A DNA stretch of 12,581 nt from Candidatus Aminicenantota bacterium (GTDB lineage Bacteria; Acidobacteriota; Aminicenantia; JAMOAD01). Below the pieces are notes generated by a model. The model searched no databases. It was given only the letters and a program-made list of their open reading frames with translations, and was not told the origin of the DNA. The position numbers and the translations under genes are program-made. Where the stretch lies: the NCBI GenBank assembly GCA_027061995.1, contig JAMOUT010000030.1, forward strand, positions 1 to 12,581. The letters run 5' to 3'. How positions within the stretch are numbered: the first letter of the stretch is position 1; each line of letters begins with the position of its first letter. Below are positions 2,961-12,581 of this stretch, one piece after another.

Positions 2961-3086
2961 CGGTTCTTTCAGAACCGTGCGAGATTTCACAAGAGCTGAG
3001 GGTTTTGATAGCTTTATACCCTGAGAGTCGAAACAAAGTGGAGATCCCGCACCAATTTATAAATCGGGAGAATAATAATGAAAAAA
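2961..3086 (+). repeat. Interspersed repeat, copy 2
   Basis: Positions 2971-3068 correspond base for base to 261-358, with eight transitions and no transversions or gaps. The upstream edge differs: here it carries a perfect 7-bp hairpin (2961-2977) where copy 1 has a longer unrelated stretch. The stem AGGGT/ACCCT (2999-3003 with 3018-3022) is fully Watson-Crick in this copy. The same forward frame as in copy 1 is open here (2939-3136), but no start codon or ribosome binding site supports a gene. Confidence 0.8.
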
Positions 3087-3241
3087 CTTTTAACAAAATT
3101 AAAATTATTGAAGAATGGGTGGAGAAGATGAGGGCATGAATATGATTAAGTAAATTTAGGGTAAAAAAATTCAATCAATTTAGTCATTCCTTTTTTAGAA
3201 TAAGATAACTTAATAAAAAAAAACAATAATTTGAAAAATTG

Positions 3242-3269: not shown

Positions 3270-3275
3270 CGTATG

Positions 3276-3295
3276 TTGACCGAACGGTCGGTCAA
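3276..3295 (+). promoter_or_regulatory. TetR-family operator overlapping the transcription start
   Basis: TTGACCGAACGGTCGGTCAA is a 20-bp inverted repeat with 9 of 10 half-site positions matching. It has the GACCGA...TCGGTC core typical of many TetR/AcrR operators. It lies between the -10 box and the ribosome binding site of the TetR gene itself. Bound repressor would block initiation or early elongation, which implies autoregulation of the whole operon. Confidence 0.85.
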
Positions 3296-3305
3296 GGGAG
3301 GAGAA

Positions 3306-3947
3306 ATGGCTGCAAAACTTGTTAATAGGGAAGAAAAAAAAGGAAAAATCATTTATGCGGCACTTAAAGTGTTTTCAAAAAAAGGGGTATCATTTACAAC
3401 GATTAATGATATAGCAAAAGAAGCTGATATAGGAAAGGGAACTGTTTACGAATATTTTAAAAGTAAAGATGAGATTATTATGTCTGTTTTTCGCAGTTTT
3501 CTTGATGATGGAATAATTTTAATGAATCAGATAAAAAAACTTTCTGTTTCTCCCGATGAAAAATTGTTAAAAGGGTTATATATGTTTACTGAGATTATTG
3601 ATGATGAAGGGGTGGAAACATTCAAACTTTTATTTGATTTTTGGGCGATAGGTATTAAGGAAGAGAAATATTCATCCGAATTTTATAATCAAATGAAAGA
3701 ATTTTACAGATCATACAGAAAAATATTTTCAGATATTATAAAAGAGGGGCAAGAGAAGGGAATTTTCAGGGAAAAAATAGAGCCTGAAAGCGTAGGTGCA
3801 ATGATAATAGGGATGCTTGACGGTTTAATGGCTCAATGGATTTTGGATAGAGATAGGATAGATTATATCGGAGCGGTTAGAACAATGGCGAAATTATTGG
3901 TTTCGGGACTTAATATTAACAAAAAAAGAGGTGAAAAAAATGATTAA
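3306..3947 (+). CDS. TetR/AcrR family transcriptional regulator
   Basis: The 213-aa product has the normal TetR length. The start at 3306 is preferred because GGGAGGAG (3296-3303) precedes it; an in-frame ATG at 3273 would put the operator inside the coding sequence and lie upstream of the predicted transcript start. The DNA-binding domain is clear: helix 1 at about 10-28, then the helix-turn-helix at 31-51 (TTINDIAKEADIGKGTVYEYF) and the Lys-Ser-Lys-Asp-Glu that follows in most members. The C-terminal helical ligand and dimer domain is less conserved, as usual. It is first in the operon, and its stop overlaps the next start by 8 nt. It most likely represses this operon through the palindrome at 3276-3295 and is released by an unknown, perhaps hydrophobic, ligand. 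Confidence 0.93.
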   Translation: MAAKLVNREEKKGKIIYAALKVFSKKGVSFTTINDIAKEADIGKGTVYEYFKSKDEIIMSVFRSFLDDGIILMNQIKKLSVSPDEKLLKGLYMFTEIIDDEGVETFKLLFDFWAIGIKEEKYSSEFYNQMKEFYRSYRKIFSDIIKEGQEKGIFREKIEPESVGAMIIGMLDGLMAQWILDRDRIDYIGAVRTMAKLLVSGLNINKKRGEKND

Positions 3948-4701
3948 TGGTAGAAGGTTTTTAATATGTTTTTTAATTCTGATTTTTGTTATCAATGTTT
4001 TTATTTTTGCGGATACTGATAATCAAGCGAGAAAGATTGTCAAAAAAATTGATGAATTATACAGAAGTAAAACAAGTTATGCGAAAATTGAGATGACTAT
4101 AGAAACACCCCATTGGAAAAGAACTCTGCAAATGGTTGTTTGGACAGAGGGGATGAAAAAAACATTTATTAGAATTTTATCCCCGAAAAAAGATAAAAAT
4201 ACAGCAACTCTTAAAATCGGAAATCAGATGTGGAATTATCTTCCGAAAGTCAATAAGATAATTAAAATTCCCCCCTCAATGATGATGAGTTCATGGATGG
4301 GCTCTGATTTTACAAATGATGATTTGGTAAAAGAATATACTTTTCTTGATGATTATGATTTTAAAATTGTTGACAATAAAGGGGAAAAAGATAAGATATT
4401 TGTTCTTTGTATTCCGAAGAAAGGGGTTGCAATCGTATGGAGTAAAATAATGCTTGCGGTTGATAAAAAAAGTTATATCCCTATATGGGAGAAATATTAT
4501 GATGATAGGGGAGATGTTGTCAGAGAGATGAGTTTTAGTGATGTTAAGAGAATCGGAAGCAGAGTTGTCCCTATGACAATGGTAATGATTCCTTTAAAGA
4601 AGAAGGGGCATAAGACAATTATAAGATATCTTGAATTAAAATATGATATAAAACTTAATAATTCTATTTTTAGTATTAGAAATTTAAGGAATATAAGATA
4701 A
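3940..4701 (+). CDS. LolA-like outer membrane lipoprotein-sorting protein
   Basis: The 253-aa periplasmic protein starts at ATG 3940, with GAGGTG as ribosome binding site at 3928-3933; a GTG at 3931 in the same frame would lack proper spacing. The signal peptide covers about residues 5-24, with cleavage after Phe-Ala-24. The rest is a beta-rich LolA/LolB-type half-barrel. The segment from Ile-Pro-Pro-Ser-Met to Trp119-Met-Gly-Ser-Asp-Phe-Thr-Asn-Asp-Asp128 is characteristic of the LolA-like COG2834 branch that pairs with FtsX-type permeases. Members carry a lipid or lipoprotein across the periplasm in a hydrophobic cavity. The companion permeases, ATPase and barrel downstream suggest a dedicated envelope-transport role, not the housekeeping Lol pathway. 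The overlap with the TetR stop implies coupled translation. Confidence 0.88.
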   Translation: MINGRRFLICFLILIFVINVFIFADTDNQARKIVKKIDELYRSKTSYAKIEMTIETPHWKRTLQMVVWTEGMKKTFIRILSPKKDKNTATLKIGNQMWNYLPKVNKIIKIPPSMMMSSWMGSDFTNDDLVKEYTFLDDYDFKIVDNKGEKDKIFVLCIPKKGVAIVWSKIMLAVDKKSYIPIWEKYYDDRGDVVREMSFSDVKRIGSRVVPMTMVMIPLKKKGHKTIIRYLELKYDIKLNNSIFSIRNLRNIR

Positions 4702-4712
4702 GGGAGAGAAAG

Positions 4713-5930
4713 ATGTTGTTTTTAAAAATGGCATTTAGAAATATATTCAGGCAAAAACGGAGAACATTTTTTACGGCTCTTACAATGATAGGTGGTTTTG
4801 CTCTTGCCTGTATATCGATAGGTTGGGCTGACGGAAGTTATAATAATATAATTGGTATGTTTACCCGCGGGTGGCTCGGTCATATACAGATTCATTATAA
4901 GGATTATCTTGACAAACCATCCATATATAAGACAATTGATAATTACAATGAAATCGGGAAAAAAATCATGGAGATCAAAGGGGTGAAAAGTTGGACTGCA
5001 AGAGTATATTCCGCAGGTCTTGCCTCTTTTAAAGATAAAACATCGGGAGTTAGTATAATAGGGATAGACCCTGAAAAAGAGGATAAAACAACCGATTTTC
5101 ATAAAAAAATCATAAATGGGGATTATTTTAAAGCAGGGGTGAAGAATCAGGTTCTTATAGGTAAAGGGCTTGCCAAAATAATTAAGGCGAAAGCAGGAGA
5201 CAAGATTATCCTTGTATCACAAGCTGCGGACGGCTCTATGGCAAATGATATTTTTACGGTATCGGGAATAGTTTCAACAGATGATGATTTGTTTGACAGA
5301 ACCTCTTTTTATATGAAACTTGATGATGCAAGGGAATTTCTGGTGCTCGGTAATAAGGTTCATGAGATAGCTGTTACCGTTGATAAACTAAAAGAGGTGA
5401 AAAAGATAGATAAGAAAATATCTTTGGTATTGAAAAACACGGATTTATCGGTTGCTTCGTGGCAGGAGTTTGCCAAAGATTTTTATAAAGCCATGAAGGC
5501 TGATAAAGGGGGGATGTGGATATCCCTTTTTGTTATAATCCTTGTTGTTGCTGTCGGTGTGCTTAATACAATTTTAATGTCTGTTTTAGAGAGGATAAGA
5601 GAATACGGAGTTCTTAAAGCTTTGGGAACAAGACCCGGTGATATAATTCTCCTTGTGCTTTACGAGGCAAATATTATCGCTGTTTTTAGCATTTTCATAG
5701 GAGCTATCATAGGTTTTGCCGTAAACTATTATCTTTCTCTGCACGGTATTCATCTTTCGCAGTCATTTACATACGGAGGAATGAAATTCTCAGAGATAAT
5801 GACCGAGATAAATCTCAGAAGTTTTATTATCCCGGGAATAACCGTTCTTCTAACCACTGTAATCGTAGGCTTTTTCCCCGCACTTAAAGCTGCAAAAACA
5901 GATCCCGCTAAATCATTAAGGTTCCATTAA
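4713..5930 (+). CDS. ABC transporter permease, FtsX/LolC-LolE (MacB) type, first copy
   Basis: The 405-aa protein is preceded by AGGGAGAG (4702-4709). The topology is that of the type VII MacB/LolE permeases. It has a conserved basic N-terminal amphipathic start (MAFRNIFRQKRRT), TM1 at about 20-40, and a large periplasmic domain at about 41-267. Three more TM segments follow at about 268-292, 313-338 and 370-391. The coupling-loop signature Glu-Arg-Ile-Arg-Glu-Tyr-Gly-Val-Leu-Lys-Ala-Leu-Gly-Thr lies at 293-306. The C-terminal Pro-Ala-Leu-Lys-Ala-Ala-Lys-x-Asp-Pro-Ala is the family's usual end. It should form the membrane part of the transporter with the second permease and the ATPase downstream, and act mechanically on a periplasmic or membrane-anchored substrate passed to the LolA-like protein. 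Confidence 0.92.
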   Translation: MLFLKMAFRNIFRQKRRTFFTALTMIGGFALACISIGWADGSYNNIIGMFTRGWLGHIQIHYKDYLDKPSIYKTIDNYNEIGKKIMEIKGVKSWTARVYSAGLASFKDKTSGVSIIGIDPEKEDKTTDFHKKIINGDYFKAGVKNQVLIGKGLAKIIKAKAGDKIILVSQAADGSMANDIFTVSGIVSTDDDLFDRTSFYMKLDDAREFLVLGNKVHEIAVTVDKLKEVKKIDKKISLVLKNTDLSVASWQEFAKDFYKAMKADKGGMWISLFVIILVVAVGVLNTILMSVLERIREYGVLKALGTRPGDIILLVLYEANIIAVFSIFIGAIIGFAVNYYLSLHGIHLSQSFTYGGMKFSEIMTEINLRSFIIPGITVLLTTVIVGFFPALKAAKTDPAKSLRFH

Positions 5931-5940
5931 GGAGGAAGAT

Positions 5941-7170
5941 ATGTTGCTTTATATAAAATTAGCTTGGAGAAATATATTCAGAAATAAAAGAAGGACGATT
6001 ATATCGGGGTTGGCAATTGCGATAGGACTTGCTTCATTAATTTATGTAGATGCATTATATATCGGGATGAAAAATAATATTGTTGATAATATTACAAAAT
6101 CATTCATGAGCGACGGGCAGATTCACAGGAAAGGTTTCAGACAAAGACAGGAGGTTGAACTGACTATAAATAATATTGATGATGTTGTGAAAAATCTCAA
6201 GAAAGAAAAAATAGTGGATAAATTCTCGGTAAGAGCATACGGTTTTGCAATGATTTCTTCATCTAATAATGTAAACTCTGTTGTTCTTGTAGGCATCGAC
6301 CCCGATAGGGAGAGATACCTCTCTCAGATAGATGATACCATTATTAAAGGTATTTATTTTAAGGGAACAGATGATAATCAGATAATCATAGGTAAAAAAC
6401 TTGCCGAGATTTTGGAAGTTGAACTCGGTGACAGAATTGTTGTAACAGTTGCTCAAGCAAACAGTTCGGAGCTGTCTCAGGAACTTTTCAGAGTGTCGGG
6501 AATCTATTTTTTAAATAATCCTCAGTTTGACAAAGGGATGGCTTTTATCAGATTGGGGAAAGCACAAAAGATGCTCAATATTGGAAAAGGGGGACATGAG
6601 ATAGCAATTAAATTAAAAAAAGGGATTGACAGAATTCATATTGATAAATTAAATATTTGGAAAAAATTCAGCTCTAACGGAAATGAGGCGGAAAGTTGGA
6701 TAGATATTATGCCTCAGATGAAAATGATGTTTGAGATGACAAATTTAAGTTTATCTTTGATTGGTTTTATCCTTTTTGCTATTGTTGCCCTTGTTATTAT
6801 TAATTCCCTTTTTATGTCGATATACGAAAGGATGTTTGAGCTCGGAGTTTTGAGAGCAATAGGGACAAGACCTTCGGGAGCTTTTAAAATGATTATTTTT
6901 GAATCGGGTGCTCTTGCGGTTTTCAGTATTATTTTAGGGATTATTCTCGGTTATATTTTAACATTTATATTTACAAAAGTTGGGATAGATTATACGGGGA
7001 TAGAGATGATGGGTGTTACGATAAAAAATATTATATATCCTGTTATGGAGTTAAGACAATTTATAATATATCCGATAATAGTTTTTTTTATTACGATATT
7101 AGTCGGAGTTTATCCCGGGATATATGCTGCAAAATTACAGCCTGCGGAGGCTTTGAGGAAAAGTTTATAA
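5941..7170 (+). CDS. ABC transporter permease, FtsX/LolC-LolE (MacB) type, second copy
   Basis: The 409-aa protein has a near-perfect ribosome binding site (AAGGAGGA at 5930-5937) and lies 10 nt after the first permease. It shares the same plan: basic start, TM1 at about 20-40, a periplasmic domain to about 270, then three TM segments at about 271-296, 315-345 and 374-396. The Tyr-Glu-Arg-Met-Phe-Glu-Leu-Gly-Val-Leu-Arg-Ala-Ile-Gly-Thr coupling loop lies between the second and third TM segments. Matching start, loop and end motifs indicate an ancient tandem duplication with strong divergence in the periplasmic domains. The pair probably works as a LolC/LolE-like heterodimer. Confidence 0.92.
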   Translation: MLLYIKLAWRNIFRNKRRTIISGLAIAIGLASLIYVDALYIGMKNNIVDNITKSFMSDGQIHRKGFRQRQEVELTINNIDDVVKNLKKEKIVDKFSVRAYGFAMISSSNNVNSVVLVGIDPDRERYLSQIDDTIIKGIYFKGTDDNQIIIGKKLAEILEVELGDRIVVTVAQANSSELSQELFRVSGIYFLNNPQFDKGMAFIRLGKAQKMLNIGKGGHEIAIKLKKGIDRIHIDKLNIWKKFSSNGNEAESWIDIMPQMKMMFEMTNLSLSLIGFILFAIVALVIINSLFMSIYERMFELGVLRAIGTRPSGAFKMIIFESGALAVFSIILGIILGYILTFIFTKVGIDYTGIEMMGVTIKNIIYPVMELRQFIIYPIIVFFITILVGVYPGIYAAKLQPAEALRKSL

Positions 7171-7179
7171 GGAGGAGTT

Positions 7180-7884
7180 ATGAGTGATAAAAAGATAATA
7201 ATTAAAACTGAGAATCTTAAAAAAGATTATAAAGAGGACGGAGTTGTTGTCCATGCTGTTCGAGGAATTGATTTTATGATTGAAAAGGGGGAATTCAGTG
7301 CGATAGTGGGACCTTCTGGTTGCGGAAAAACAACTCTGTTAAATCTTATATCCGGACTTGATACACCTGATGAGGGAAAAGTTTGGCTTGACGGAAAACT
7401 TATATCTGATATGAGCGGAAAAGAACTTTCCGATTTCAGAAGAGATAATATAGGCTTTATATTCCAAGCTTACAATCTTATTCCTGTTCTAACCGTAGAG
7501 GAGAATATTGAATATATAATGTTATTGCAGGGGATAGGTAAGAAAGAGAGACACAACAGAGTTATTGAGATACTTGAAGAGGTAGGCTTATCGGGACTTG
7601 AAAACAGAAGACCGACGCAACTTTCGGGAGGACAACAGCAAAGGGTGACAATAGCAAGAGCAATGGTTTCAAAACCAAAAATAATTCTTGCGGATGAACC
7701 TACTGCAAACCTTGATTCTAAAACAGGAACCGAACTCCTTGATATGATGGCTGAACTTAATGAAAAAACGGGGATGACATTCCTTTTCTCCACTCACGAT
7801 AAGATGGTGATGGAGAGAGCGAGAAGGGTAGTTGTTTTAAAAGACGGGATGATAGTTGATAAAAAAGAGATAGATATTGTATGA
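7180..7884 (+). CDS. ABC transporter ATP-binding protein, LolD/MacB type
   Basis: The 234-aa ATPase has GGAGGAG at 7171-7177, directly after the permease stop. All nucleotide-binding motifs are intact: Walker A GPSGCGKT (44-51), Q-loop Gln-96, signature LSGGQ (148-152), Walker B IILADEP (168-174) and the switch His-206 in STHD. The length and the text around the Q-loop (IFQAYNLIPVLTVEEN) are typical of the LolD/MacB ATPases that energise FtsX-like permeases. It should act in the cytoplasm as a homodimer under the two permeases. Its stop lies 4 nt before the preferred start of the barrel gene. Confidence 0.95.
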   Translation: MSDKKIIIKTENLKKDYKEDGVVVHAVRGIDFMIEKGEFSAIVGPSGCGKTTLLNLISGLDTPDEGKVWLDGKLISDMSGKELSDFRRDNIGFIFQAYNLIPVLTVEENIEYIMLLQGIGKKERHNRVIEILEEVGLSGLENRRPTQLSGGQQQRVTIARAMVSKPKIILADEPTANLDSKTGTELLDMMAELNEKTGMTFLFSTHDKMVMERARRVVVLKDGMIVDKKEIDIV

Positions 7885-7888
7885 AAAA

Positions 7889-9130
7889 ATGAAAAAAATA
7901 GTTTTCGCATTAATTATCGTTTTATCGGTTTCGCCTCTTTTTTCAGGGAATAACATTGATTTTTCGGGATATTATAAATCATTCTTTTTGGTTTTTAATC
8001 CCATCGATAATCCATTTGAAGAGAATAACTCTTTAAACGGAGTTGTTTCAAATCGTAAAAGGTTTGATTTTTCTTTCAATCCTTCGGACAGGTTTTCCAT
8101 TAATATTAGTTATGATTTAATTCCTAAAACAGAGAATAAGACAGGTTTACCGTTTGCTACGAATATTTTAAATTATACTAATTCTTACAGAGCTTATGAT
8201 TTGAATAAAATATTATTGCCCTCGGGTTATGATGAATCAAGCGGAGGAAATTTCGCTGTTTATCAAAATCTTGACAGAGCATACTTAAGATTACGGTTTG
8301 ATTTTGCGGATATATATATAGGAAGACAGGCTGTATCATGGGGAAGCGGAAAACTTGCCAATCCGACGGATATTTTCGCCCCTTTCTCTTTTAATGAGCT
8401 TGATAAAGAGGAGAGAAGGGGAGTTGATGCGATAAGGGTTAGAATCCCCGTCGGAAATTTGTCCGAGATTGATACGGGTTTTGTTTTCGGTGATAAATTC
8501 AAGTTATCAAACAGCGGTTTTTTTCTTAGAAGTAAATTATTTATGTTAAATACGGATTTATCATTTATGGTTATAGGGTTTAGGAATAATCTTCTTCTCG
8601 GGGTTGATTTAACAAGACCCATAGGGGGAGCGGGATTTTGGTTTGAAGGTGCATATGTAAAAAACAATTTTTATAATAAAGATCAAGATGAGTTTTCAGA
8701 TAATTATACGAGGATTTCCACGGGTTTTGATTATAATTATAAAGGGGTTTATATGATGATTGAATATCATTATAATGGAGCGGGTTCAAGCTTGCCTCAG
8801 GGATACTATAATTTATTTAATACAAGGGCTTACAGAACAAACTCAATATTTTTTATGGGGATAAACTATGTGAGCATAATGAGTTTATATCAAATAACGG
8901 GTCTTTTATCCAATACAAATATGATTATATATAATATGAACGACAAATCAATACTCTTATCTCCCAAATTTGAATACAATATCTCGGAAAATATCTATCT
9001 CTCTTTCGGAGTATTTATCAGTATCGGTAAAAAACCATCCTATTCCTCCTATTTTATCCCACCCGCAATAAGGTCGGAGTTCGGAATGTATCCAGATATG
9101 TTTTATACATCTTTCAGAGTTTATTTTTGA
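7889..9130 (+). CDS. Outer membrane beta-barrel protein, DUF1302-like
   Basis: The start at 7889 (413 aa) gives a canonical signal peptide: Lys-Lys, a hydrophobic core at 4-18, and cleavage near Ser19-Gly20. A TTG at 7877 in the same frame is possible and would add four residues. Neither has a strong ribosome binding site, so translation may depend on termination of the ATPase gene. The body has the alternating aromatic/polar beta strands of a barrel and ends in Tyr-Phe, an outer-membrane barrel C-terminal signature. The segment near residues 142-185, with Gly-Arg-Gln-Ala-Val-Ser-Trp-Gly-Ser-Gly-Lys and Asn-Pro-Thr-Asp-Ile-Phe, is typical of DUF1302-type barrels. Those often neighbour LolA-like (DUF1329-type) and exporter genes. 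It may be the outer-membrane terminus of the transport route. Codons 57-113 are duplicated at 12414-12581. Confidence 0.8.
   Translation: MKKIVFALIIVLSVSPLFSGNNIDFSGYYKSFFLVFNPIDNPFEENNSLNGVVSNRKRFDFSFNPSDRFSINISYDLIPKTENKTGLPFATNILNYTNSYRAYDLNKILLPSGYDESSGGNFAVYQNLDRAYLRLRFDFADIYIGRQAVSWGSGKLANPTDIFAPFSFNELDKEERRGVDAIRVRIPVGNLSEIDTGFVFGDKFKLSNSGFFLRSKLFMLNTDLSFMVIGFRNNLLLGVDLTRPIGGAGFWFEGAYVKNNFYNKDQDEFSDNYTRISTGFDYNYKGVYMMIEYHYNGAGSSLPQGYYNLFNTRAYRTNSIFFMGINYVSIMSLYQITGLLSNTNMIIYNMNDKSILLSPKFEYNISENIYLSFGVFISIGKKPSYSSYFIPPAIRSEFGMYPDMFYTSFRVYF
8059..8226 (+). repeat. Direct repeat copy A, inside the barrel gene
   Basis: These 168 bp recur at 12414-12581 with a single difference: A at 8099, G at 12454, changing Ile-71 to Val. 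This is the internal region from codon 57 to codon 113 of the barrel gene. Because the second copy reaches the window end, the true repeat may be longer on the 3' side. Confidence 0.97.
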
Positions 9131-9144
9131 CGAATATAGAAAAA

Positions 9145-9173
9145 TTGACAAATATATATATCTATTCTATAAT
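9145..9173 (+). promoter_or_regulatory. Consensus sigma-70 promoter just after the barrel gene
   Basis: Perfect TTGACA (9145-9150) and perfect TATAAT (9168-9173) are separated by the optimal 17 bp, 14 nt after the barrel gene stop. Transcription should begin near 9180. No full-length gene follows within 400 bp, only a start-less open frame and weak small ORFs. The promoter may serve a displaced gene, a small RNA, or the restriction genes as a long leader. Confidence 0.8.
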
Positions 9174-9176
9174 TAA

Positions 9177-9287
9177 TTTCAAGGATGGGTAAAAACAACA
9201 CAATTTGCAGAGTCGAAAAATGTATCGGGCGGTAGCATACCTGACAAAGAAAAATTGATATCAAAGCGGGGGAGAACCGTAAAATAG
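9177..9287 (+). pseudogene. Short start-less coding remnant of unknown origin
   Basis: An open frame of 36 codons between in-frame stops has no ATG. Its translation (GWVKTTQFAESKN, then Val-Ser-Gly-Gly-Ser-Ile-Pro-Asp-Lys-Glu-Lys) looks protein-like and less AT-biased than the flanking DNA. I do not recognise the family. It could be a fragment of a gene broken by the insertion of the neighbouring island. An alternative reading from ATG 9185 gives only a 16-residue peptide after AAGG, probably meaningless. A chance open frame cannot be excluded. Confidence 0.25.
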
Positions 9288-9358
9288 ATAATAGAAAAAG
9301 GATTTTTAAACTGTTTGTTGCAAACAAACAAAATAGTTGTAAGAGTTGAAAATAAATT
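9288..9358. other. Non-coding gap containing a small hairpin
   Basis: A perfect 7-bp inverted repeat, TGTTTGT (9312-9318) with ACAAACA (9324-9330), surrounds a 5-nt loop. No T-run follows, so it is not an obvious terminator. It could be an operator or a structured RNA element downstream of the promoter at 9145. Confidence 0.4.
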
Positions 9359-9574
9359 ATGGGTAAAAAAATAGTAATAATAAAAGGTTATCCTTATCAA
9401 AAAATTATAGTAAATTTTGGTAAATTATTTCTGACAGTTTTACAGAATTATTATAGTAAATATAAAAGTTGTAAAGAACTAATAATCGAAGATTGGAAAA
9501 TGTCTCCAATATACATTATAGATTACGACTTAAATCAGGAAGTTAAATATATCAAATTTTCGGCTACTATATGA
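9359..9574 (+). CDS. Small hypothetical ORF, weakly supported
   Basis: The 71-codon frame begins ATG-GGT-AAA. No ribosome binding site is present at a useful distance; the closest purine run, AAGAG at 9341-9345, is 13 nt upstream. The product is rich in Ile, Lys and Tyr, with no recognisable motif, signal peptide or membrane segment. It lies downstream of the strong promoter at 9145 and upstream of the restriction endonuclease gene, where some systems carry a small control protein. No helix-turn-helix is visible here. A chance frame is as likely as a gene. Confidence 0.25.
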   Translation: MGKKIVIIKGYPYQKIIVNFGKLFLTVLQNYYSKYKSCKELIIEDWKMSPIYIIDYDLNQEVKYIKFSATI

Positions 9575-9611
9575 AATTATAAATAGAATACTAATATAAA
9601 TAAAACTCCTA

Positions 9612-9638
9612 TTGACAATGAAATTTTAGTATGATAAT
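9612..9638 (+). promoter_or_regulatory. Probable promoter of the restriction-modification genes
   Basis: A perfect -35 TTGACA (9612-9617) is followed after 15 bp by GATAAT (9633-9638), one mismatch from the -10 consensus. The spacer is short. TATGAT at 9630-9635 is an alternative -10 but sits too close. Transcription would start near 9645 and leave a leader of about 25 nt before the endonuclease start. Confidence 0.55.
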
Positions 9639-9669
9639 TTTTTAATATTATTAAGGAATGGGAGAAATT

Positions 9670-10449
9670 ATGAGTTTAATAGGAACAAAATATTTTAAAG
9701 AGTATAGGAACAAACTTGGTTTTACCAATCAACAAGAAACTAAAAAATTCTTTGCCGGAAAAGATATAATTCCAACGGTTGATTATCATTATATCAACTT
9801 GTTTAATAATAGGTTAATTGAGATAGTTCATAAAATAAATGAGTTGGTTGATAATTCTATAAAGATAAAAGAGTTAGATGCTTTTTGTTCTGAAAATATA
9901 AATTCAGTATTTCAAAAGTTGAAAAAGAATAATATTATTCCAAAATTAAATAATCAAGGAAGAAGACCCGAGCAAGTTTATTTTTCTTGGATGAGGGGAT
10001 ATGTTATTTCAAATTATTTTCTAAAAGCGCTAAGTTTAATATTTGAAGTTAATATTGATGATATAGATTTGATTGGAGATGATGATTTAGTGAATATTGA
10101 AACATTTAAAAGAACACCAAAAGCTGATTTGGAAATTAATTTACAGACAGGGAAAATAAGATTAGAAATTCAATCAGGATTTCAAGGAGTTAATGATATA
10201 AAGCAACATAAAGTTTTGGAAGCTAAGAGGTTGTTTTTGGAAAAAGGGATACCGACCATTGCAATACATTTTGATTTATTTAACGGACAGGTTGCTTTTG
10301 TTGAATTGAATAGTATTGAAGATAAAAGTGTTAATTGGATTACAAGGCAACAAATGGAAGGGCAAACCGTATTTAATATAGATCAGAATTATTTCATATG
10401 GAAAATAACGGATAAACCACCTAAATATAAAGATTTAAATTTCAGATAA
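9670..10449 (+). CDS. Type II restriction endonuclease, PD-(D/E)XK fold with E-x-Q active site
   Basis: The 259-aa product starts at ATG 9670, with GGGAG at 9660-9664; the in-frame ATG at 9658 has no usable ribosome binding site. The active-site pattern is visible as Pro150-Lys-Ala-Asp153, a 12-residue beta hairpin, then Glu166-Ile-Gln168. That is a PD-(D/E)XK arrangement with Gln replacing Lys, as known for BglII-like enzymes. The next helix (Asn-Asp-Ile-Lys-Gln-His-Lys) and strand (Ile-Ala-Ile-His-Phe-Asp) fit the fold. The gene ends 9 nt before a C5-cytosine methyltransferase, its presumed protective partner. The recognition sequence is unknown; some features recall the NgoBV/NlaIV group (GGNNCC), but that is a memory-based suggestion only. 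It should cut unmethylated foreign DNA as a dimer. Confidence 0.8.
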   Translation: MSLIGTKYFKEYRNKLGFTNQQETKKFFAGKDIIPTVDYHYINLFNNRLIEIVHKINELVDNSIKIKELDAFCSENINSVFQKLKKNNIIPKLNNQGRRPEQVYFSWMRGYVISNYFLKALSLIFEVNIDDIDLIGDDDLVNIETFKRTPKADLEINLQTGKIRLEIQSGFQGVNDIKQHKVLEAKRLFLEKGIPTIAIHFDLFNGQVAFVELNSIEDKSVNWITRQQMEGQTVFNIDQNYFIWKITDKPPKYKDLNFR

Positions 10450-10458
10450 GGTGATAAA

Positions 10459-11646
10459 ATGAAAATAAAAGTAATTGATTTATTTGCAGGGGTAGGTGGT
10501 TTAAGCTATGGATTTGCTCATGATAATGATTTTGAGATTATAGCAGCGAATGAAATTCTTCCGGATATGGCAAAAGCTTATGAATTAAATCATTCCAAGG
10601 TAAAGATGTATTGTAAGGATATAAAAGAGTTCGGTATTAAGGATTTGGAGAAAGATTTTAATATTAAAAAAGGGGAAATAGATTTAATTATTGGTGGTCC
10701 ACCTTGTCAAGCATATTCTACTGTTGGTAAAAGATTAATAGATGACCCGAGAGGAAAGTTATTTCAAGAATATTATAGAGTTCTAAAAGAATTAGATCCG
10801 AAAGTATTCTTGTTTGAGAATGTGAAAGGTCTGTTGTCAATGAAAAAAGGGGAATTAATAGAAACTATTGTTTCATTATTTAAGTCATTAAATTATAAAA
10901 TTAAATATAAAGTTCTTAATGCTGCTGATTACGGAGTCCCTCAAATCAGAGAAAGAGTTATTATTGTCGGGACTAAATTAAAATATGAGTTTAAGTATCC
11001 TAAGCCAACTCATAGCAGTTATGAAAATATATTCGGGTTAAAACCGTATCTTACACTATCTGAAGCAATAAGTGATTTACCTTTTATCAAAAGCGGAGAA
11101 GAAAGTTTTGATTATGCAAGTGAACCTAAAAACGAATTTCAAAGATTGATGAGAAAAAATGCACCTGAGAAATTAATGGATCATAATGCTCCGAAAAACA
11201 ATAGCAAATTAATTAAATTGATGGAATTATTACCCGATGGAGGCACACCGAAAGACTTACCAGAAGAATTGAGACCTAAAAGTGGTTTTGGGAATACTTA
11301 TTGTAGGTTGTGGTGGAATAGACCAAGCACTACAATTACCAGAAACTTAAGCACCCCGTCTTCATCAAGATGTATTCATCCCAAAGCTCCAAGACCACTT
11401 ACAACAAGAGAGGGAGCAAGAATCCAATGCTTCCCCGATGATTACAAATTTTATGGATCCCGAAGTTCTAAGAACTTGCAAATAGGTAATGCTGTTCCTA
11501 CTTTTTTATCAATAGCGTTAAAAGATGCTATTAAAAAGCATTTTGACAATTCACTGGAAAACAGAAATTTTACAGCAAATACTATACAAAATATAGAGAA
11601 TGTGAATATAACAATGAAAAATCAATTGACAAAAATATATCCATAA
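10459..11646 (+). CDS. DNA (cytosine-5-)-methyltransferase
   Basis: The 395-aa enzyme has AAGGTGAT as ribosome binding site (10448-10455). It carries the C5-methyltransferase motifs in canonical order: motif I DLFAGVGG (7-14) binding S-adenosylmethionine, motif IV GGPPCQ (79-84) with catalytic Cys-83, motif VI ENVKG (120-124) and motif VIII QIRERVIIVG (162-171). Motif IX lies around RPLTTREGARIQCFPD (312-327) and motif X is QIGNAVP (341-347). The target-recognition region falls at about 180-305 and is of moderate size. A short, low-complexity, Asn-rich tail follows motif X from about residue 363. It methylates cytosine in the site cut by the upstream endonuclease and so protects the host. The arrangement is R then M on the same strand; no separate control (C) protein or Vsr repair gene is seen. 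Confidence 0.95.
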   Translation: MKIKVIDLFAGVGGLSYGFAHDNDFEIIAANEILPDMAKAYELNHSKVKMYCKDIKEFGIKDLEKDFNIKKGEIDLIIGGPPCQAYSTVGKRLIDDPRGKLFQEYYRVLKELDPKVFLFENVKGLLSMKKGELIETIVSLFKSLNYKIKYKVLNAADYGVPQIRERVIIVGTKLKYEFKYPKPTHSSYENIFGLKPYLTLSEAISDLPFIKSGEESFDYASEPKNEFQRLMRKNAPEKLMDHNAPKNNSKLIKLMELLPDGGTPKDLPEELRPKSGFGNTYCRLWWNRPSTTITRNLSTPSSSRCIHPKAPRPLTTREGARIQCFPDDYKFYGSRSSKNLQIGNAVPTFLSIALKDAIKKHFDNSLENRNFTANTIQNIENVNITMKNQLTKIYP

Positions 11647-11654
11647 GTTATTAT
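11626..11654 (+). promoter_or_regulatory. Promoter within the 3' end of the methyltransferase gene
   Basis: TTGACA (11626-11631) and TATTAT (11649-11654), the latter one mismatch from consensus, are 17 bp apart and overlap the methyltransferase stop. Transcription would start near 11661 and leave about 58 nt of leader before the membrane protein at 11719, giving it expression independent of the methyltransferase. Confidence 0.6.
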
Positions 11655-11672
11655 TATAAAAATTTATAATAA
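11651..11672 (+). repeat. AT-only inverted repeat between methyltransferase and membrane protein
   Basis: A perfect 10-bp inverted repeat (TTATTATAAA, 2-nt spacer, TTTATAATAA) overlaps the predicted -10 and transcription start. With only A-T pairs it is a poor terminator. Its position fits an operator or a chance AT palindrome. Confidence 0.4.
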
Positions 11673-11718
11673 ATAAATTAAATCTTAAGGATAAATTCTA
11701 AAATAAAGGAGGGATAAG

Positions 11719-12246
11719 ATGATTCCAAATCTTGTGAGTCTAATTTCTGTTATTAAGGTTTTAATTTCAGCAATTGTTGCTTTTATCACTGCATGGTTAA
11801 CAGTTAAATTTAATTTGGTTAGAGAAAGAAATAAAGGGAAAATATTAATTTTTGAAATTGTAAAAAAATATTTTATACTTTTTTACAATAGTTTTGAGAA
11901 AGGTAAAGAAAGTTCAACAATTAAAAAAGATAGAATATCGAAGGAAAAATATTTAAGAGTTATTGAAAAAATTGAGAATGATTTTATTAATCTACAGAAT
12001 AATTTATACTATTCTTGTTTGTTAGAAAATTATCCTTCAATCACCATGACGCAAATCTTAATAAGTATGGAAATAGCTGAGCTCAGAAACAGAGAAGATT
12101 TTGCCTTTAATGCAGGGACAGTAAAACATTTTTGTAAATTATTTAAAGCAATTAAAAAAGATATCCCGAAAAAATACCTGAAAAATGAAGTAATGAAAAA
12201 CTTCAACCATATATTGGAATTTATTGAAAAACAAAACTTATGTTAA
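11719..12246 (+). CDS. Membrane-anchored protein of unknown function beside the R-M genes
   Basis: The 175-aa product has a strong ribosome binding site (AAAGGAGGG at 11706-11714). One N-terminal transmembrane segment spans about residues 7-29. It is followed by a basic stretch (Lys-Phe-Asn-Leu-Val-Arg-Glu-Arg-Asn-Lys), so the remaining 145 residues are predicted to be cytoplasmic. That part is Lys/Glu/Ile-rich and probably all helical, with no catalytic motif I can recognise. No cleavable signal is evident. It shares the island with the restriction and methylation genes but has its own likely promoter. It may be an accessory defence protein or a passenger; the sequence does not decide. Confidence 0.7.
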   Translation: MIPNLVSLISVIKVLISAIVAFITAWLTVKFNLVRERNKGKILIFEIVKKYFILFYNSFEKGKESSTIKKDRISKEKYLRVIEKIENDFINLQNNLYYSCLLENYPSITMTQILISMEIAELRNREDFAFNAGTVKHFCKLFKAIKKDIPKKYLKNEVMKNFNHILEFIEKQNLC

Positions 12247-12402
12247 TTTTAGATGTTATTAGATTTTTTATAATAAAAGTTTGAATAAATTGAAAAATAA
12301 TTATTATATAAAAAAATTGTAAGATAAAAGTTACCATATTACCATAATGGTATGAAAAAACATTGAAAAATAAAGCTCCAAACTAATTTTGATGAATGAA
12401 AT
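12247..12402. other. AT-rich spacer with a 13-bp palindrome, no gene seen
   Basis: Very AT-rich sequence follows the membrane protein gene. A perfect palindrome, TACCAT-A-ATGGTA, lies at 12340-12352 and is preceded by a further direct TTACCATA half-copy at 12331-12338. This operator-like arrangement has no obvious gene to control apart from the truncated barrel frame starting at 12403. No convincing terminator is seen. Confidence 0.5.
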
Positions 12403-12581
12403 ATGAGAAGTTTAAGGTTTGATTTTTCTTTCAATCCTTCGGACAGGTTTTCCGTTAATATTAGTTATGATTTAATTCCTAAAACAGAGAATAAGACAGG
12501 TTTACCGTTTGCTACGAATATTTTAAATTATACTAATTCTTACAGAGCTTATGATTTGAATAAAATATTATTGCCCTCGGG
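12403..12581 (+). pseudogene. 5'-truncated duplicate of the barrel gene, running off the window end
   Basis: From 12414 the sequence is copy B of the 168-bp repeat, encoding residues Lys/Arg-58 to about 113 of the barrel protein at 7889-9130 with one Ile-to-Val change. The signal peptide and first strands are missing. An ATG at 12403 is in frame (Met-Arg-Ser-Leu, then the barrel sequence), but it has no ribosome binding site and would give a protein without export signal, so it is probably non-functional as a barrel. The near identity, including silent positions, means the duplication is recent. It may continue past the window. Confidence 0.75.
12414..12581 (+). repeat. Direct repeat copy B, truncated barrel gene
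   Basis: It matches 8059-8226 at 167 of 168 positions, offset by 4355 bp. The left boundary is sharp: upstream of 12414 there is no similarity to the sequence before 8059. The right boundary is beyond the window. Together with copy A it brackets the restriction-modification genes in direct orientation. Confidence 0.97.

Follow-up and report, generated by a model that had tools for sequence, protein, structure and literature searches.

Insertions of restriction-modification (R-M) systems that are accompanied by a long duplication of the target are known (Nobusato et al., 2000; Furuta et al., 2010; via PMC1643837, PMC3031569, and PMC3874152), and the latter three articles describe them for R-M systems of Helicobacter. 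Here, a related arrangement was analyzed computationally in a Candidatus Aminicenantota bacterium (assembly GCA_027061995.1), in which a predicted R-M gene pair lies between two copies, one of them truncated, of a gene for an outer-membrane beta-barrel-like protein, in the following referred to as barrel gene. The analyzed window of 12,581 nucleotides comprises an entire contig (JAMOUT010000030.1, here C30; G000:C30:1-12581) of a genome of 2.36 Mb in 104 contigs. The explanation that we favor, and hold with moderate confidence, is an R-M island that brought its own truncated barrel copy and was joined to the chromosome by a single homologous crossover (Campbell-type). To our knowledge, the route by which R-M genes lacking a transposase or integrase enter a genome has been left open since the long target duplications of Helicobacter were described.

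Results

The R-M genes are flanked by a direct repeat in the same orientation, positions 8059-8226 and 12414-12581 of the forward strand being identical at 167 of 168 sites with a start-to-start spacing of 4355 bp. A chance origin was rejected, as the length of the repeat at this identity lies far above random expectation. The sole mismatch, at position 8099, is an A in the left and a G in the right copy and corresponds to I75V. The left barrel copy (7877-9130, + strand) is an intact open reading frame (ORF) of 417 amino acids with the C-terminus VYF and, as supported by its orthologs, the last gene of a lolA-like/ftsX/ftsX/ABC operon. The right copy (12403-12581 on C30, + strand) is 5′-truncated: in the alignment, an ATG at 12403 that belongs to the island (MRSL...) reads in frame into codon 61, and the predicted product would lack the signal peptide. 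An initial annotation made from the window alone had noted the repeat with its single mismatch, the R and M genes within it, the intact left ORF and the right copy starting inside the gene, all of which was borne out.

The right copy stops at position 12581 because the contig ends there. The initial annotation had suggested that the 3′ part of the barrel gene should follow beyond this point, and a search with the barrel gene in the same genome found it at the start of another contig, C103. The first 418 nucleotides of this contig (L007:1-418) match window 8711-9128 in frame at 406 of 418 positions (97%) and represent the 3′ third of the second copy, which has its own stop codon TAG; the stop codon of the left copy is TGA. 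After this barrel end, C103 continues with different downstream DNA and then with a gene for a DEAD-box helicase (L007:549-2132). Based on the 168-bp match on C30 and the 3′ match on C103, the predicted duplicated unit is approximately 1070 bp long and extends from codon 61 to the stop of the 417-codon barrel gene (8059-9128 in the left copy, + strand). The assembly lacks the middle of the right copy, window 8227-8710 being found in the genome as a single copy, namely the left one. The placement of both copies on one molecule rests on the assembly.

The two copies differ at a single site within the 5′ 168 bp, compared with 12 sites within the 3′ 420 bp, where the stop codon differs as well; seven of these 12 change the protein. 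A single barrel gene split by sequencing error was ruled out by these 3′ differences together with the different downstream DNA. For the polarity of the changes, both copies were compared with barrel orthologs of 11 relative genomes, which are 39-64% identical and found at the same operon position. At positions 326, 329, 337, 354, and 379, the relatives carry L; K (R or Q); S, T, or N; I or L; and A (S or G), respectively. The right copy, with L, K, S, I, and A, agrees with them, whereas the left copy, with F, I, L, M, and V, does not, so that the left copy has five derived changes at conserved positions, namely L326F, K329I, S337L, I354M, and A379V. The only changes derived in the right copy are N312D and D407N, the left copy matching the nearest relatives at 312 and 407.

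Scored with a profile built from the relatives only, the left 3′ part has lost 13.0 bits and the right one 0.9 bits relative to the inferred ancestor; for five random, unselected changes, the mean cost is 8.4 bits (95% range 1.4 to 15.5). Since the loss of the left copy lies in the range of random change and that of the right copy is as low as 0.9 bits, the 3′ end on the island side seems to behave as unconstrained DNA, and the one on the helicase side as part of a working gene. This is held as the better reading and not as proof, because the counts are small (five versus two). With the left copy derived and the right copy ancestral at conserved positions, the left 3′ end appears to be foreign or decayed; more likely, it arrived with the island, and the right 3′ end is native. 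The target duplication assumed in the initial annotation implies a native left copy and a dead leftover on the right; this point is unsupported or reversed, as it is the right 3′ end that is ancestral and the left one that carries the five derived changes.

Between the barrel copies lie a promoter-like sequence, a 71-amino-acid ORF, R, M, and a 175-amino-acid ORF. The insert is placed from the stop codon of the left copy (about 9117-9128) to 12413 and is, by its predicted gene content, a type II R-M island of 3.3 kb; of the limits given in the initial annotation (after 9130 to 12413), the end was kept and the start was moved to this stop codon. Its G+C content is 26.9%, whereas the left flank has 33.8% and the genome (295 kb sampled) 32.2%. 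M (10459-11646, + strand, 395 amino acids) is a predicted DNA cytosine-5 methyltransferase (PF00145, E 8.2e-79; TIGR00675, 1.5e-67, above cut-off) with M.HaeIII as best sequence match in the PDB (1e-39). None of the Pfam, NCBIfam, and PADLOC models matched R (9658-10449, + strand, 263 amino acids), and a PDB sequence search gave no useful E-value. However, 80 homologs of R, 41-79% identical and widespread over many phyla, were found in genome contigs, and an M homolog is present in 79 of the 82 loci with an R homolog. No R homolog was found on plasmids, and only two were found in viral contigs.

The residues D157...E170-x-Q172 of R are invariant in 41 homologs, and an AlphaFold model built with 41 sequences (predicted local distance difference test score 89) appears PD-(D/E)XK-like. 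The model resembles the archaeal Holliday resolvase Hjc (Z 8.2, root-mean-square deviation 2.6 over 114 residues) and DpnI (Z 6.9), with Z-values that are modest when taken alone; Foldseek pointed to HincII and Hjc with weak E-values. From these Z-values together with the linkage to M, there is good reason to regard R as a predicted restriction endonuclease, and R and M appear to be an intact pair of a real R-M family. As in type II systems with a cytosine-5 methyltransferase (M.HaeIII-like by sequence), R and M are adjacent and in the same order in most homologs; the difference lies in the R family, which those three databases do not model. In another genome of the same phylum (G088), an R homolog that is 43% identical (L055, G088:C1:539951-540691) adjoins a convergent methyltransferase gene of the N6_N4 type instead of the cytosine-5 type, and this nuclease family thus seems to have exchanged its methyltransferase partner there.

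The first element inside the island is a predicted sigma-70-type promoter with an exact match to the consensus TTGACA-17-TATAAT (9145-9173, + strand). The 71-amino-acid ORF (9359-9574, + strand) is doubtful as a gene and has no homolog in the 82 R-M loci. The 175-amino-acid ORF (11719-12246, + strand), cargo downstream of M with an N-terminal hydrophobic stretch resembling a membrane anchor, had no match in Pfam, NCBIfam, or PADLOC and is absent from the homologous R-M loci. No integrase was recognized among the 71-amino-acid ORF, R, M, and the 175-amino-acid ORF in Pfam and NCBIfam scans, the Pfam scan covering the last three of these. A composite transposon carrying the R-M genes was considered and rejected, as no transposase was recognized among the ORFs of 9131-12413 and the flanking repeat is the barrel gene and not an insertion sequence.

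At the left edge of the island, the homology of the left copy to the native end reaches as far as the stop codon, with GTTTATTTTTGACGAATATAG on the left and GTGTATTTTTAGGAGGATAC in the native sequence. From the alignment and a motif, the junction is placed at 9117-9128 (+ strand), where GTGTATTTTTAG of the native barrel 3′ end and GTTTATTTTTGAC of the island edge would share the microhomology TATTTTT. The TGA stop of the left copy falls inside the island-edge motif TTTATTTTTGACGAATATAG (9120-9139, + strand), for which a motif search with up to two mismatches gave eight sites in the genome (this one and seven others; L183-L190) and none with the reversed motif as control. Several of these sites lie directly upstream of promoter-like -35/-10 sequences, and the motif may represent either an upstream element of promoters or a repeat edge. 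The adjoining segment 9163-9238 (+ strand) recurs in intergenic places on contig C95 and in part on C57 (83% over 76 bp). Since the motif is dispersed and this segment recurs, the island edge is probably DNA of this genome's own kind that was joined to the barrel gene at the TATTTTT microhomology.

Other loci of the same R-M family were surveyed for direct repeats of at least 40 bp within 2.2 kb on both sides, and of the 71 loci with enough flank, five had such repeats, compared with none of 104 control placements in the same loci (Fisher p = 0.01). In L086 (genome G310), 259 bp of the 3′ end of a helicase gene are repeated and 89% alike. The repeat of L057 is the end of a ruvB-like gene just upstream of R, that of L078 comprises 47 bp of the 3′ end of tRNA-Ser on both sides, and that of L079 is 72 bp long (89%); the fifth locus is L090. 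The two helicase ends of L086 differ by 28 changes, of which about four are nonsynonymous, giving a ratio of nonsynonymous to synonymous changes per site (pN/pS) of 0.06 (p = 2e-11 against neutrality). Because the changes are mostly synonymous, both ends are likely to have evolved in working genes before they were brought together. At the protein level, the surroundings of the 71 loci were searched for older duplications, which returned three loci (L086, L078, and, weakly, L072) against two control matches and no convincing new case.

Among family-mates of the L086 genome, G333 (L201) contains, about 3 kb downstream, a fragment of the helicase 3′ end together with other cargo, and G332 (L202) and G331 (L203) have one helicase gene and no fragment, so that this site is found both loaded and empty. 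Across L086 and L201-L203, the helicase 3′ end has the appearance of an integration hot spot with varying cargo (R-M, a toxin-antitoxin-like pair, and others) and 3′ fragments left behind. In addition, tRNA genes adjoin the R-M genes in five of 56 loci scanned; the tRNA gene directly precedes R in L068, L077, L078, and L091 and follows M in L105.

The barrel gene has no Pfam or NCBIfam family. It closes a series of genes (3273-9130) for a TetR regulator, a LolA-like protein, two FtsX/MacB permeases, and an ABC ATPase, of which the order from the LolA-like to the barrel gene is kept in many genomes of the class. By its predicted products, this operon looks like one for outer-membrane lipid or lipoprotein export, with a barrel for which no family model exists. 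Elsewhere in the window, positions 225-400 and 2967-3089 belong to a dispersed repeat family with 20 matches in the genome, several of them at 88-95% and some near contig ends. Rfam gave no match in the window.

Discussion

In the favored explanation, the island DNA (promoter, R, M, and the 175-amino-acid ORF) would have carried its own 5′-truncated barrel copy, from codon 61 to the stop. One homologous crossover in the central stretch of the barrel gene, where the copies are identical, would have joined it to the chromosome in the way a plasmid integrates. The upstream barrel gene would thereby have kept its native 5′ part and obtained a 3′ part that stems from the island, with the native one being displaced beyond the island, beside the helicase gene and behind the island-derived truncated 5′ end. 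A reverse crossover would release a circle of 4355 bp and restore the conserved barrel gene, which supports the claim of the initial annotation that recombination between the repeats would leave one such gene. This course of events is supported by the second 3′ end beside a different downstream gene, by the polarity of the changes, the island edge, and the G+C content, as well as by the linkage of R and M in 79 of 82 loci, the repeats in five of 71 loci, and the ends of L086. As the island-side 3′ end appears to be foreign or decayed, integration by a single crossover fits better than a fresh target duplication. From these observations we infer the crossover itself, the existence of a circle or donor, and a linkage that bridges the unassembled core.

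Several points weigh against this explanation. The polarity derives from seven amino-acid differences, and the counts of five versus two are not significant by themselves, their weight coming from the positions that are changed; the pair of copies in the window has a pN/pS of 0.41, which is not clearly non-neutral (p = 0.12). No replication or integration protein encoded on the island was recognized. Family-mates have one barrel gene, with the upstream operon kept and other genes downstream, and helicase orthologs in relatives sit elsewhere. The adjacency of barrel and helicase gene was not seen in the family-mates, and the relatives examined offered no empty site, a direct empty-site comparison being precluded by the differing barrel neighbors and the different location of the helicase orthologs. 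The five repeats of the survey are short (44-259 bp), that of L090 is probably a dispersed repeat and was not leaned on, and p is 0.026 when this locus is left out. Finally, the 710-nucleotide core is placed only once in the assembly, and the linkage of left and right parts is the choice of the assembler.

The last point leads to an alternative that we consider unlikely, namely a misjoining of the arms by the assembler. In this case, the chromosome would hold an intact, conserved barrel gene followed by the helicase gene, and the island would be a separate circle of 4355 bp with the truncated barrel copy, or be present only in part of the sequenced population. C30 ends exactly 127 nucleotides past the last difference between the copies, and C103 starts 99 nucleotides ahead of the next one. 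In this genome, further contig ends have stretches in common that are exactly 126 or 127 nucleotides long, once 99, besides a few other lengths, which suggests that the breaks are de Bruijn k-mer boundaries with k = 127; both breaks are therefore as expected from an exact repeat longer than the k-mer. The same assembly graph (left arm, core, island, core, right arm) would result from an integrated island or from a free circle of 4.36 kb beside an intact gene, and the two are indistinguishable here. Moreover, the left 5′ part and the right 3′ part together would give a barrel gene with all conserved residues. Nevertheless, the assembly did connect the left arm to the island, and a circle without a recognized replication gene would be transient unless it was constantly excised. 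In any case, a separate circle or a mixed population would be the same recombination in its other state.

An insertion with a strict long target duplication also appears improbable. Here, 1.07 kb of the target would have been duplicated on entry, and the copies, identical at first, would have drifted, the left one being kept and the right one remaining as a remnant. The anatomy fits this course, with a direct repeat, one intact and one truncated copy, and the R-M genes in between, and the Helicobacter systems provide a precedent. However, the described duplications are, according to PMC3874152, "in the order of 100 bp" and thus about ten times shorter. Furthermore, the kept left copy has changed at five conserved positions and the dead right copy is ancestral, which is the reverse of what would be expected, although few sites are involved. 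L086 of the same R-M family shows diverged orthologous ends and not drifted duplicates. An integrase-dependent island with the barrel 3′ end as attachment site would, as at tRNA 3′ ends, account for an upstream gene restored by the island and a displaced native end, and is reminiscent of the tRNA-Ser repeats of L078 and the four further loci with a tRNA gene next to R or M, but with no recognized integrase and a repeat of 1.07 kb, far above the usual attachment core, it is highly improbable.

If single-crossover integration is the right explanation, such R-M units would supply a host gene with a new end, push the former end aside, and be able to exit again, and the repeats would record recombination between diverged gene ends and not a duplication made on insertion. 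We tentatively extend this, in a generalization that may well prove too wide, to some other apparent long target duplications of R-M systems, which might be small DNA units with a host gene 3′ end as homology arm that enter by ordinary homologous recombination. A test for ancestral residues combined with a test for selection on the copies distinguishes a repeat that was "duplicated on insertion" from one that was "brought in by recombination", and both here and in L086 it points to recombination. As the sequence alone suffices for it, this test is applicable to every R-M locus flanked by repeats.

In comparison with the known long target duplications, the locus is alike in that a segment of a host gene, repeated in the same direction, encloses the R-M genes, with one copy intact and the other truncated, and in that a clean deletion is possible. 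It differs in the length of the repeat and in the divergence of the copy at the left island edge at conserved positions, by which the repeat looks brought in and not made on the spot. With the attachment sites that islands and prophages use at gene ends (3′ ends of tRNA and protein genes), it would share a host 3′ end supplied by the element and a displaced native end, as well as, in L078, repeats at tRNA-Ser, but neither a recognized integrase nor a repeat as short as an attachment core. Campbell-type integration of a circle with a homologous segment would likewise leave a direct repeat, a hybrid left gene, and a hybrid truncated right copy in a reversible arrangement; here, no known replicon or donor plasmid is at hand, and the crossover point would lie somewhere inside the identical core. 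As R-M genes flanked by target repeats are already known, it is the length of the repeat, about ten times the order of 100 bp, and the pattern of divergence that are new, and the locus illustrates clearly, though not in a radically new way, how such defense genes move.

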